33,657 nucleotides of DNA from an uncultured Verrucomicrobiales bacterium (lineage in GTDB: Bacteria > Verrucomicrobiota > Verrucomicrobiia > Verrucomicrobiales > DEV007), in NCBI GenBank assembly GCA_937891465.1, contig CALAHF010000173.1, forward strand, positions 1 to 33,657. The letters run 5' to 3'. Of this stretch, positions 14,931 through 23,316 are shown piece by piece. Both the position numbers and the translations under genes were made by a program. How positions within the stretch are numbered: position 1 is the first letter of the stretch; every line of letters starts with the position of its first letter. The notes beneath the pieces are model-generated. The model did not search any database. It was not told where the DNA came from and saw nothing but the letters and a program-made list of their open reading frames with translations.

Positions 14931-15794
14931 CTAAAATTTACCCATCAGATGGTTCGCAATCGTCACGACCCGTTCCGACCACTTCAAATTTGCCGGCTTC
15001 AAGGTGGGAACCGTTGGTGCCGCGACTTGTAAAAACGGTTTTCCCGAAATCCATTTCCCCTGCGTTCCATTTCCTTTTTGAGCCGTGAAAGGCTGGCCGT
15101 TCGAATCGTGGAACACAAAAATCTCCGACTCCATCCCGCCGTTCGGGTCGATAATTCCAAGTTTGAATCCTTGAGACGACACCGTTTTTGTCACCTCATC
15201 TCCTCGAATTAAGCTATCAGGGACTTCGGTGATCAGGACATAATGATGCTGTCCGATCCGCCATTCCATTTCTCCCGGTTTGTTCAACTTCTCACGGGCA
15301 ACAAACGATTTCAGGCTCAAGATGGGTGGAACGCCCGCCTCCAATGATCGTTTCATCATTCGATGAATTCGGCGAACCATTTCGGAGTCTTTTTCTTTAA
15401 CATTCTCGCGATCCAGCCATGAGCCTGATAAATCGAGACGATCAAGTCCGTTCTCCTCCATCCAATCATCTGCGGCCGCTTCCATGTCGCGGGTCAAAAC
15501 TCCGTTGATGCCCCATCGATACAATTCCGGAGAAATCACCGACCGTTTCTTTTTGAAATGACGTTCGATCAAATAATTGATTCGTTTTGCGGAATCCGAA
15601 CCGATCAGCTTTCCATGCGCCGCCTGCATTTCCGGCGTTCCGTTTTGAAATTGCATCAGCATGCACGTCGGTCCGCAAGCATTGAGCGATTTAGGGTAGG
15701 TGTTTTGATCAATCTTTTCGGTTATCTCGATTCTTACAGTTTCTCCAGCGCTCCCTATTTGAATTGCGCCGAAAAGTGCAATAACTGAAAACAC
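14931..15794 (-). CDS. Exported papain/C39-like cysteine peptidase-type protein
   Basis: Numbered from GTG 15794 (287 residues). A hydrophobic leader FSVIALFGAIQIGSA is followed by the mature chain. NACGPTCMLMQF puts a cysteine at 40, GQHHYVLITEV gives H183 or H184, and IIDPNGG gives D216; together these match the Cys-His-Asp triad of C39-like folds. Peptidase activity is inferred, not shown. The start is uncertain: the frame is open to ATG 15944, but everything between 15804 and 15900 is the palindromic repeat cluster, and the ORF would overlap prfB. With GTG 15794 the signal peptide lacks the basic n-region (RSWK) that lies just upstream inside the repeat, so the repeat may have replaced or fused to the original 5' end. 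Confidence 0.7.
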   Translation of the reverse strand: MFSVIALFGAIQIGSAGETVRIEITEKIDQNTYPKSLNACGPTCMLMQFQNGTPEMQAAHGKLIGSDSAKRINYLIERHFKKKRSVISPELYRWGINGVLTRDMEAAADDWMEENGLDRLDLSGSWLDRENVKEKDSEMVRRIHRMMKRSLEAGVPPILSLKSFVAREKLNKPGEMEWRIGQHHYVLITEVPDSLIRGDEVTKTVSSQGFKLGIIDPNGGMESEIFVFHDSNGQPFTAQKGNGTQGKWISGKPFLQVAAPTVPTLKPANLKWSERVVTIANHLMGKF

Positions 15795-15803
15795 GAGTTT
15801 CCA

Positions 15804-15900
15804 CGAACGGACCCTATTGATTCGCCGAACGTACCCTGTTGCTTCAAAACGGCTTTTCGAAACAATAGGGTACGTTCGATGAACAGACCCTGTTGCTTCG
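15804..15900 (+). repeat. Repeat cluster: two direct half-units plus a complete 43-bp palindrome (copy 3)
   Basis: It holds four 21-bp half-units. Units at 15804-15824 and 15826-15846 are direct (cores ACCCTATTG and ACCCTGTTG). Units at 15858-15878 (inverted, CAATAGGGT) and 15880-15900 (ACCCTGTTG) form the complete element with one base between them. In that pair about 16 of 20 arm positions match, centred on TTCGATGAA. The unit at 15826 also mirrors that at 15858 at about 18 of 20 positions, so alternative hairpins are possible. The cluster lies between prfB and the C39-like gene. Confidence 0.8.
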
Positions 15901-15921
15901 TTTTCGGTTGAATTAAACGAT

Positions 15922-17041
15922 TTAAACATCGCCGTCATCGGCACCTCCTACTTGACCGCGGAGTTTTGCCTCCATGAACGGAGTCAAATCACCATCCATC
16001 ACCGCTGAAATGTTGCCGGTCTCGCGACCGGTTCGGTGATCTTTCACCATTTGGTAGGGATGGAAAACATAGGAGCGAATCTGACTTCCAAAGCCAATCT
16101 CTCCTTTGTCGCCGTATTCCTGCTCCATTCTGGCGCGCTTTTTGTCTTCCTCGATCTGGAAAAGCTTGGTTTTGAGCAATTTGAAAGCGAGTTCTTTGTT
16201 CTTCAGCTGACTTCGCTGTGCGGTGCAGCGAATCTGAATTCCAGAAGGCTTGTGCTTCAGTAAAACGCCGGTTTCGACTTTGTTTACGTTCTGGCCGCCT
16301 TTGCCGCCAGATCGCATTGTGGTGACGTCGCAATCGGAATCGGCCACTTCGATATCGGGGGCCTTTTCCAGATCAGGTGTCACTTCAACACTCGCAAACG
16401 AGGTGTGACGACGCGATTGGGAATCGAAAGGCGAAATTCGGACAAGTCGGTGAACGCCACGCTCACAGTTGAGGTATCCGTAGGCGTTTTCACCCGAGAA
16501 CCGAATCGTTGCTCCGCGAATGCCGGCTTCGTCTGCGTCTTGGAGATCGACGACCTCTGTTTTGAAATCATTTTGATCACCCCAACGAAGGAACATGCGG
16601 AAAAGCATTTCAGCCCAATCGCAGGCTTCGGTTCCGCCCGCTCCTGAGTTGATTGAAAGGAATGCGTTGTCCGAATCGTTTGGGCCGCTCAACAAAGTCT
16701 GCAGCTGGATTTTTTCCAACGCGACTTGAATTTGAGCTGCTTCGGAAACGACTTCTTTGGCGCTGGCTTCATCGCCTTCTTCTCGGGCCATTTCGACGAG
16801 CACTTCCATATCATCGATCCTCGAATCGAGCGCGATGATTGGATCGATCTTCTTTTTCAGGGTCGACACGTTGGCCATTTTTGCCTGTGCCTCATCCTGA
16901 TTGTCCCAAAAGCCGGGCGCGGACATCTCCTCTTGAATAGAGGCCAGTTTATTTTCGAGCTCAGCGAAGTCAAAGGTACCGCCGCAGCTCAGTGAGCCGG
17001 GCCTTTAAAGCGTCCGTGTCGATTGTTGAGAGATCATCCAT
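15922..17041 (-). CDS. prfB: Peptide chain release factor 2 (programmed +1 frameshift)
   Basis: RF2 releases nascent chains at UGA and UAA. The gene starts at ATG 17041 and reads 23 codons ([20 protein letters not shown], then RYL) to an in-frame TGA at 16970-16972. A +1 shift on CTT-TGA-C gives [20 protein letters not shown] and the rest, 372 residues in all, close to the 365 of E. coli. The catalytic GGQ is in [12 protein letters not shown]; the SPF-type stop-recognition motif reads ISPFDSQ. The second frame alone starts at 16926, which would drop the N-terminal helices. The shift site makes expression depend inversely on RF2 level. Stop codon is TAA. Confidence 0.97.
16969..16975 (-). promoter_or_regulatory. 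prfB programmed +1 frameshift site CTTTGAC
   Basis: On the minus strand CTT TGA C follows CGG CGG TAC. The CTTTGAC core is identical to the E. coli site. The upstream Shine-Dalgarno-like spur (AGGGGG in E. coli) is here only GCGGCGG, so stimulation by anti-SD pairing may be weaker. This is recoding, not a broken gene. Confidence 0.93.
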
Positions 17042-20941: not shown

Positions 20942-21002
20942 CTTGTAATTCTTGATTGTTTTCTATCCGAAGAACAGAAAACGCAAGGTGAGGTGAGAGG
21001 TA

Positions 21003-22754
21003 TCAGTCTTCCGATTTTTCCTCTGACTTTTCCTCTGATTTCTCTTCGGTTTCTGCACCTTCTTCGCTTGGACGCCATTCGTCGCTTGCGAGGTTGAACG
21101 CCTGCTCGAGTCCAACAAGGTCGCTGCTTGGACGCAAGGCTTCGAATGCGGCAGTCTCTTTCTTGAGATCTTCCTCGCTGTATTCTGCAGCTTTGATCGA
21201 AAGACCAATGCGGCGCTCGACGCGGTCGACTTTGATGACGCGTGCCTCGACGTCGTCTCCGACTTTGAGAACGTCCTTCACCTTGGCCACGTGCTCTTCG
21301 CTCAATTGCGAGATGTGAACCAAACCGTCGATGTCGTCTTCCAACTGAACGAAAGCTCCGAAGCTTGCGATCTTAGCGACCTGACCTTTAACGAGATCTC
21401 CAACCTTGAAGCGGCCGTCGATTTCATTCCATGGGTCATTCTCAAGCTGCTTGATACCAAGGCTGATGCGCTGGTTGGTCTTGTCGATGTCGATGACCTG
21501 TGCTTCGAGCTCTTCGCCCTTCTTGAGGATTTCGCTTGGGTGATTGATCTTCCGTGTCCAACTGAGGTCGGAAACGTGAATCATACCGTCGATGCCGTCT
21601 TCGAGTTCTACAAACGCACCATAGGCAGTGAGGTTGCGGATCTCGCCCTTGATCGTTGAACCGATCGGGTAGCGTGACTCGACTTCGTCCCAAGGATTTG
21701 GCTCGAGCTGGCGAACCCCGAGGGAGATTTTCTGCTCTTCCTTGTTGATCGAGAGGACAACCGCTTTGACTTCCTGATTGACTTCGAGAACGTCGCTTGG
21801 GCGTGTAATACGCTTGGTCCAGGACAGTTCGGAAACGTGGATGAGACCTTCGACGCCTTGCTCGATTTCGACAAATGCTCCGTAAGGAACCAATTTCGTA
21901 ATCGCACCGGCAACTTCTGTTCCGATTGCATACTTGCTCTCGATGCCATCCCAAGGGTTGTTGAGAAGCTGCTTGAGACCGAGCGAAACACGCTCTTTCT
22001 CCTGATCCACTTCGAGGATCTGAACAGTAAGCGTCTGACCAATCATGAGCATTTCGCTCGGGTGATTGATACGGCCCCAGCTCATGTCCGTGATGTGAAG
22101 CAATCCGTCCATGCCTTGGAGATCGACGAACGCACCGAAATCGGTGATGTTCTTGACCATTCCGTCGACCGTGTCGCCGATTTGAACTTCCTCGAGGAAC
22201 TGCTGACGCTGCTCTGCGCGCTCAGCTTCGATAACTTCACGACGTGAAAGAACGATGTTCTTCCGGATGTCATTGACCTTAACGATCTTAAATTCGTAAA
22301 CCTTGCCAACGTATTCATTGAGGTCTTTTGGTGGGATGACGTCGATCTGCGAACCGGGAAGGAAAGCCTCAACACCGACGTTGACCATGAGGCCACCTTT
22401 AACAACAGATTTGACCTTACCTTTAACAAGGCCGCCATCTTCGTAAACTTTGACAATCTTGTCCCAGTTTTGCTTGTGTGCTGCTTTCTCTTTCGAGAGA
22501 ACAACCATGCCCTCGTCGTTTTCGAGTTTTTCGAGGAGCACCTCAATTTCGTCGCCTACGGCGAAGTCTTCGTCTTCAAATTCTGAAACGGGGATGATTC
22601 CCTCGGATTTCGCGCCGATATCGACGATGACGACTTGCTTGCTAACTTCAAGGATCTTGCCGTTTACAATCGAGTTTTCTCGATAGGCGATGAAGTTGTT
22701 GTCAATGAGTGCTGCCAATTCAGGATTGGTGCCCTCGATGAGGTCGGTGGACAT
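21003..22754 (-). CDS. rpsA: 30S ribosomal protein S1
   Basis: A 583-residue protein with six S1 (OB-fold) repeats at about 26-88, 107-172, 193-261, 278-348, 365-435 and 452-521. Repeats 3-6 carry the strong RNA-binding signature GAFV-x-L/I-x(4,6)-GLxH-S/T. S1 brings mRNAs without strong Shine-Dalgarno sequences to the 30S subunit, which fits the near absence of such sites here. The C-terminus ends in a tandem acidic repeat EEKSEEKSEEKSED. The start is ATG 22754 (MSTDLIEG), which matches the family; the frame is open to GTG 22805, but that lies inside the leader hairpin. No Shine-Dalgarno precedes the ATG. Regulation probably runs through the structured leader. Confidence 0.96.
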   Translation of the reverse strand: MSTDLIEGTNPELAALIDNNFIAYRENSIVNGKILEVSKQVVIVDIGAKSEGIIPVSEFEDEDFAVGDEIEVLLEKLENDEGMVVLSKEKAAHKQNWDKIVKVYEDGGLVKGKVKSVVKGGLMVNVGVEAFLPGSQIDVIPPKDLNEYVGKVYEFKIVKVNDIRKNIVLSRREVIEAERAEQRQQFLEEVQIGDTVDGMVKNITDFGAFVDLQGMDGLLHITDMSWGRINHPSEMLMIGQTLTVQILEVDQEKERVSLGLKQLLNNPWDGIESKYAIGTEVAGAITKLVPYGAFVEIEQGVEGLIHVSELSWTKRITRPSDVLEVNQEVKAVVLSINKEEQKISLGVRQLEPNPWDEVESRYPIGSTIKGEIRNLTAYGAFVELEDGIDGMIHVSDLSWTRKINHPSEILKKGEELEAQVIDIDKTNQRISLGIKQLENDPWNEIDGRFKVGDLVKGQVAKIASFGAFVQLEDDIDGLVHISQLSEEHVAKVKDVLKVGDDVEARVIKVDRVERRIGLSIKAAEYSEEDLKKETAAFEALRPSSDLVGLEQAFNLASDEWRPSEEGAETEEKSEEKSEEKSED

Positions 22755-22770
22755 AATAGGGTAGTATTTG

Positions 22771-22842
22771 AAAAAAAATGCTGCCGCTGGCGTGAACAAG
22801 TTCACGCGCTACACGGTCGCAAGCGACCTGCAGCATTTTTTT
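22771..22842 (-). promoter_or_regulatory. Structured rpsA leader: three-way junction ending in U8
   Basis: Read on the minus strand, the outer stem AAAAAAATGCTGC pairs perfectly with GCAGCATTTTTTT (22830-22842 with 22772-22784, 13 pairs). Inside are two perfect hairpins: GGTCGC-TT-GCGACC (22815-22828) and GCGTGAA-CTTG-TTCACGC (22790-22807). The U8 ends 17 nt before the rpsA ATG. The shape fits an attenuator or a protein-binding autoregulatory leader. An ATG in the outer stem (22836) opens an out-of-frame upstream ORF that overlaps the rpsA start. Confidence 0.7.
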
Positions 22843-22962
22843 GGTTTTGGTTGTTTACTTGGTTAATCGGACTTCCGATAGTGCTCCAAAGATGAACCCG
22901 GCCAAAATCGTGGAGCGCCTGCATTCCGGTCGGGGGCGGCAAACCTAGGATGAAAAACAGGA

Positions 22963-23316
22963 ATGGCAAGAGAGAAAATCAGGCCGAATCGAAGCCCGTT
23001 TTCCCTGATGGCCGTTGGAGCCATGGCGTTTTTTAGAAGCATGAATTTTGGTGATATCCAGTCGAAGAAGTTAATCATCGCGAAAGGTCTGCTTTTCTTA
23101 ATATTAGGGCTGATTGCAGGCGCTCTCGTGGTCTTTGAAACTGGAGAGTGGTGGCGGCGGCTCGGTTTTCTGTCGATTTGCGTCTGGGCCTTCTGTCGCA
23201 GTTACCATTTCGCCTTTTATGTAATCACCAATTATGTCGATTCGAGCTTCAAGTTCGCTGGATTGGGCAGCGCATTGCGATTCTTGCTGAAACGTCAGAG
23301 AAATGTAAAAAAGTAG
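22963..23316 (+). CDS. Small membrane protein, 2 to 3 predicted TM segments
   Basis: A 117-residue protein with a basic N-terminus, hydrophobic stretches at about 36-58, 64-79 and possibly 82-90, and a basic C-terminus (LLKRQRNVKK). No family recognised. ATG 22963 is the first start; internal ATGs at residues 16 and 21 are alternatives. It is divergent from rpsA, and its promoter lies in the same 120-base gap. It is followed 54 bases later by the SHD1 protein gene on the same strand. Confidence 0.6.
   Translation: MAREKIRPNRSPFSLMAVGAMAFFRSMNFGDIQSKKLIIAKGLLFLILGLIAGALVVFETGEWWRRLGFLSICVWAFCRSYHFAFYVITNYVDSSFKFAGLGSALRFLLKRQRNVKK

Follow-up and report, generated by a model that had tools for sequence, protein, structure and literature searches.

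A Covarying H-Type Pseudoknot Upstream of rpsA in Several Verrucomicrobiales Families and a Probable Terminator-Like Insertion in One Species

Introduction

In an uncultured Verrucomicrobiales bacterium, the rpsA gene, which encodes ribosomal protein bS1, is preceded by a long palindrome that ends in a run of eight U residues. A sequence-only reading of this DNA had regarded the palindrome as an rpsA leader structure that could act by attenuation. Is this palindrome a conserved regulatory element, and if not, which part of the leader is conserved and what might each part do? We examined these questions by comparing the leader with those of related genomes. Positions refer to the window, i.e., the whole stretch of 33,657 nucleotides that was analyzed. 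The relevant features are listed below.

20944 to 20915: intrinsic terminator of ordinary type just 3' of rpsA (13-bp stem, U-rich tail, A-stem-U plan)
21003 to 22754, minus strand: rpsA, ribosomal protein bS1, 583 amino acids, with six S1 domains (six stretches matching Pfam PF00575)
22843 to 22862 and 22755 to 22770, minus strand: the two halves of an unstructured A/C-rich tail (AACC repeats) between the pseudoknot and the start codon, split by the putative insertion
22771 to 22842, minus strand: 72-nt palindrome, absent from relatives and probably inserted, with an A7-UGCUGC/GCAGCA-U8 outer stem closing two hairpins
22830 to 22842, minus strand: 5' arm of the outer stem, AAAAAAAUGCUGC, carrying an out-of-frame AUG at 22836
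22772 to 22784, minus strand: 3' arm of the outer stem, GCAGCAUUUUUUU, continuing into U8 (22778–22771)
22861 to 22940, minus strand: conserved rpsA leader element with an H-type pseudoknot, based on covariation and a covariance-model match (E 2.6e-12)
Within 22861 to 22940, minus strand: helix S1 (CCCGACCGGA/UUUGGCCGGG), helix S2 (GCUCCA/UGGAGC), and the conserved loop GCAGGC
22942 to 22969, minus strand: promoter-like pair recognized by eye, with a −35 TTGCCA (22969–22964), 16 nt, and a −10-like TAGGTT (22947–22942)

Structure of the Palindrome and the rpsA Start

On the leader strand, the palindrome follows the pattern A7-UGCUGC ... GCAGCA-U7(8), its ends being uncertain by 1–2 nt. The outer arms (22842–22830 and 22784–22772) are perfectly complementary over 13 bp. 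Of the three perfect arms described in the sequence-only reading, this outer stem and the 7-bp second hairpin (GCGUGAA-CUUG-UUCACGC) hold, whereas the first hairpin, given as 6 bp, has 5 bp (GGUCG-CUUG-CGACC), because a sixth pair would leave a loop of 2 nt. The U8 tract (22778–22771) is present as had been noted; the 3' arm runs into it, and 16 nt separate it from the rpsA ATG. With a G+C-rich hairpin and a U-tract immediately 3' of it, the palindrome has the layout of an intrinsic terminator.

The structure exceeds chance, in line with the strong folding proposed before: the RNA of the leader strand folds at −31.1 kcal/mol (z −3.8), and none of 200 shuffled sequences did as well. The same was true when the palindrome was folded as DNA (z −5.1; 0 of 200 shuffles). 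The plus strand folds to a different optimum; the rpsA leader corresponds to the minus strand. Nearest-neighbor folding that excludes pseudoknots favored an alternative fold, with a probability of only 0.16 for the outer stem.

The rpsA ATG at 22754 lines up with the starts of its orthologs in the family, and we regard it as the family-type start despite an open rpsA frame that reaches an upstream GTG at 22805, within the palindrome (window 22754–22805). It is possible that this GTG gives a 17-residue N-terminal extension of the product in this species only. The out-of-frame AUG in the outer stem (22836), also recognized in the sequence-only reading, opens an ORF of 38 codons that spans the rpsA start. 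No canonical Shine-Dalgarno (SD) sequence was found before rpsA, either in the window, which has CAAATACTACCCTATT-ATG, or in relatives, which have A/C-rich tails.

The Palindrome Is Found in a Single Species

rpsA was located in 67 of the 75 family genomes, and leaders were collected from most of them. An early DNA search showed that relatives' leaders have a gap exactly where the window has the palindrome. It is absent from all 64 same-family rpsA leaders with enough upstream sequence, among them that of the only other genome of the genus compared. Over the last 75 nt ahead of the ATG, perfect inverted-repeat arms reach 13 bp in the window but no more than 7 bp in any of these 64 relatives. 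The idea of a conserved leader structure fails here, and an alignment of leaders, proposed along with it as a check, yields no compensatory changes in the palindrome, as there is nothing to align; the sequence-only reading had itself named such an outcome as a refutation.

The distance from the pseudoknot described below to the ATG is 45–59 nt (median 48) in 57 relatives and 128 nt in the window, or 56 nt once the 72 nt are subtracted, and the two flanks (...AACAACCAAAACC and CAAATACTACCCTATT-ATG) join into one ordinary family tail. The palindrome is absent from relatives, and joining its flanks restores the spacing of the family; the reading that fits best is a terminator-like insertion specific to this species.

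We also searched for other copies of the insert, which had been seen in one draft metagenome-type assembly (229 contigs, about 96% complete). The window's own genome yielded no second copy, the 74 family relatives gave only short chance matches, and no relatives of the palindrome were detected in phages, plasmids, or viral contigs. Phylum-wide matches were scattered pieces of 17–29 nt, and a 20-mer scan with the insert, covering the records of a contig collection other than the window's own, returned just two records, from unrelated bacteria. A repeat or mobile palindrome of the REP or MITE type was rejected, as several copies would be expected and there is a single one. Two individual matches were also set aside: a 20-nt match in genome G007, which by eye lies inside an apparent coding gene, and a short intergenic match in a Vibrio plasmid (E 2).

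A Conserved H-Type Pseudoknot Upstream of the Palindrome

A covarying structure is nevertheless present in these leaders: a pseudoknot, which starts some 20 nt 5' of the segment considered in the sequence-only reading. Every normal family leader has the order helix a, a loop of the GCAGG type, helix b, a', a second loop, and b'. In this a-b-a'-b' arrangement the loop of the first hairpin pairs downstream and both helices are supported, as expected of an H-type pseudoknot. When 65 leaders were searched blindly for their best pseudoknot, the scores averaged 35.2 versus 23.4±4.3 in shuffled ones, and 58 of the 65 exceeded the 95th percentile of the shuffles.

Covariation was analyzed in 58 family sequences that were aligned by sequence only. 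The sequences were trimmed using the predicted pseudoknot and eight leaders were omitted (seven without the standard geometry and one truncated), so that the set leans towards pseudoknot-bearing leaders. In this alignment, 79.2% of cells paired, compared with 63.8±1.0 after shuffling. Covariation scored 0.521 versus 0.251±0.014 after shuffling, and sliding by 1–3 columns gave no more than 0.264. Two-sided changes were observed at 10 of 10 pairs of helix S1 and at five of seven pairs of helix S2. The loops are variable with few invariant bases. Neither the window nor the relatives' leaders matched any family in Rfam 15, be it at the gathering score or with a convincing E-value, and our survey of the literature on rpsA leaders and pseudoknots, including Verrucomicrobia, found no description of it. 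On this comparative evidence, the pseudoknot is a previously uncatalogued RNA element common to the relatives.

Distribution and Specificity for rpsA

A covariance model of the element gave 58 matches in the family with E-values of 4e-5 or better. Each genome concerned has a single match, always directly upstream of rpsA, and these include G009 and G013, which had not been used in building the model. The element combines two properties of autoregulatory ribosomal leaders, a covarying structure and a position directly before one ribosomal protein gene across genomes.

The fold recurs in the rpsA leaders of other families of the order (f2, f6, and part of f3). A separate alignment of 14 sequences from three sister families gave a covariation score of 0.520 (shuffled, 0.221±0.028; slid, at most 0.190). 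No convincing pseudoknot was found in the rpsA leaders of another family of the same order, f4, and no convincing equivalent in those of other orders in the class and phylum. Beyond the order, model matches were weak, and the two best examined (in G339 and G157) are not at rpsA and were treated as chance.

Two other features of these leaders were noted. The rpsA leaders from other orders and classes (L192–L197) lack an equivalent pseudoknot; in some of them (L195 and L196) the rpsA ATG is preceded by purine-rich SD-like stretches, which suggests a different mode of initiation. In both genomes examined of one f2 genus (g19; leaders L145 and L146), the pseudoknot ends directly at the AUG of a 12-codon ORF, MRKIVNTNSSTI, which stops at UAA, and the rpsA AUG comes immediately after it (UAAAUG); this is possibly a conserved upstream ORF.

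Promoter-Like Sequence and Leader Tail

The promoter-like pair adjoins the pseudoknot on its 5' side and, by eye, is placed alike in relatives; a consensus promoter scan did not score it. Transcription should start near 22935 if the pair is used. Its position means that both pseudoknot and palindrome are expected in the transcript; a start downstream of 22772, which the sequence-only reading had named as evidence against its proposal, is not what the sequence predicts. The tail that follows the pseudoknot is of the AACCNAACAACC type common to relatives. No AU-rich single-stranded S1 targets were found in the translation initiation region: the conserved tail is A/C-rich, and the sole U-run is the species-specific U8.

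Possible Function of the rpsA Leader

In Escherichia coli, S1 represses its own mRNA, which lacks an SD sequence, in competition with the 30S subunit (PMC10931766). The affinity of S1 for H-type pseudoknots in SELEX is nanomolar (PMC7708055), and S1 also binds pseudoknots in the rpsO, tmRNA, and preQ1 RNAs (PMC7708055; PMC10931766). In tisB mRNA, S1 uses a pseudoknot far upstream as a standby element (PMC7708055). Considering both the self-repression in E. coli and the binding of H-type pseudoknots, the most economical reading is that the pseudoknot is most likely an S1 autoregulatory operator or a ribosome standby site.

Based on these observations, we propose that rpsA mRNA starts just 5' of the pseudoknot, which would be followed by a short A/C-rich tail without SD sequence and the start codon. 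The pseudoknot is most likely the place where S1, either free or as part of the 30S subunit, recognizes its own mRNA: for S1 on the ribosome it would work as a standby or entry site, and excess free S1 would compete for it, resulting in translational autoregulation. In one species, the tail that separates the pseudoknot from the start codon appears to have received a 72-nt terminator-like palindrome. As this insert would fold on itself and bring its ends together, the effective distance from the pseudoknot to the AUG would be roughly kept, and U8 probably gives some premature termination that lowers rpsA output without abolishing it. For this explanation as a whole, i.e., a pseudoknot recognized by S1 and an inserted palindrome that terminates in part, we estimate a probability of about 0.6; the S1 binding, the autoregulation, and the partial termination are the parts that we infer.

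Gram-negative bacteria cannot do without S1 (PMC10931766), and therefore the insert cannot stop all transcription. Efficient termination ahead of an essential gene should kill the cell; the insert must then be a weak terminator, allow read-through, or be circumvented by an unseen promoter. It is either leaky, or folds away without much effect, or is regulated.

The pseudoknot is a candidate rpsA operator for a widespread order (f1, f2, f6, and part of f3), with a shape that S1 prefers in vitro, which opens S1 autoregulation outside gammaproteobacteria to direct tests. The insert, a strong terminator-like hairpin before an essential gene that is tolerated in one species, amounts to a natural experiment.

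Alternative Explanations

The insert may have no regulatory role at all. A neutral or slightly harmful recent insertion, such as a stray terminator or the remnant of a small mobile palindrome, that simply folds away is a serious possibility, to which we give a little less than an even chance. It agrees with the occurrence in one species as a single copy without conservation, with an insert length near the excess in spacing, and with the failure to find relatives in phages, plasmids, and viral contigs. On the other hand, the arms are perfect over 13 bp and show no decay, implying that the insertion is either very recent or under constraint, and no source copy was found in the genome, which is about 96% complete. 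The same restriction to one species, in a draft of 229 contigs, might instead point to an assembly or binning artifact, to which perfect palindromes are prone. We consider it very improbable that the palindrome is missing from the real genome, since it matches nothing else in this genome or the searched databases that could be a visible chimeric source, and its flanks continue the family leader undamaged.

If the insert is regulated, attenuation in response to S1, an extension of the idea in the sequence-only reading, could be considered: stabilization of the pseudoknot by S1 would allow the terminator to form and transcription to stop at U8; otherwise AAUGCAGGCGCU in the leader would pair with the 3' arm and transcription would read through. 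The layout of the terminator is textbook, AAUGCAGGCGCU can pair with AGCGGCAGCAUU of the 3' arm at 10 of 12 positions, and the energies of the two folds differ little (−55.3 and −54.1 kcal/mol). However, when other leaders were put in front of the insert, 22 of 300 shuffled ones and 3 of 64 from relatives gave an equally low outer-stem probability; the pairing is thus at best marginally better than chance and was not counted as evidence. Moreover, relatives without the insert conserve the same leader strand, which was therefore not selected for switching, and the pairing calculation ignores the pseudoknot. We regard such attenuation as unlikely. Quite unlikely, too, is the evolutionary version of this idea, in which capture of a terminator turned an ancient S1-binding pseudoknot into an attenuator, with the formed pseudoknot freeing the 3' arm and its loss sequestering it. 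The pseudoknot itself might respond to a small molecule rather than to S1, as H-type pseudoknots are used by the preQ1 and SAM-II riboswitches. Within the family it occurs only before rpsA, no Rfam riboswitch matches it, and its variable loops with few invariant bases are unlike a ligand pocket; a riboswitch is hardly to be expected here.

Comparison with Known Systems

The proposed S1-recognized leader resembles the rpsA translation initiation region of E. coli and other gammaproteobacteria in being structured, in lacking a canonical SD sequence, and in having S1 itself as the likely repressor. The E. coli region combines AU-rich single-stranded stretches with a specific fold (PMC10931766); here, by contrast, an H-type pseudoknot lies about 48 nt before the ATG and an A/C-rich tail follows. 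The palindrome, too, differs from the E. coli leader, as the sequence-only reading had held. Like the pseudoknots bound by S1 (the SELEX ligand, rpsO, the tisB standby element, tmRNA, and preQ1), the element is an H-type pseudoknot in an mRNA leader; unlike them, it belongs to the gene for S1, comes from another bacterial lineage, and has S1 as a putative ligand. As a covarying RNA directly before a ribosomal protein gene it is also similar to the ribosomal leader candidates of Eckert and Weinberg (2020, PMC7247131), who make no mention of rpsA or bS1.

The insert, with a G+C stem and then U8, is similar to intrinsic terminators and attenuators, and the terminator at 20944–20915 has the same A-stem-U plan. 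It differs from ordinary intrinsic terminators in its stem, which forms a three-way junction of 71 nt, and in its position before an essential gene.

Repeated Motif Elsewhere in the Window

Four imperfect copies of a GAACGNACCCTRTTGNTTCG-like motif, in both orientations, are present at 15799–15905. They lie at the upstream edge of an ORF without Pfam match (14931–15944) and adjoin a release-factor gene (15922–16926) with PCRF and RF-1 domains, and could be operator or recombination sites.
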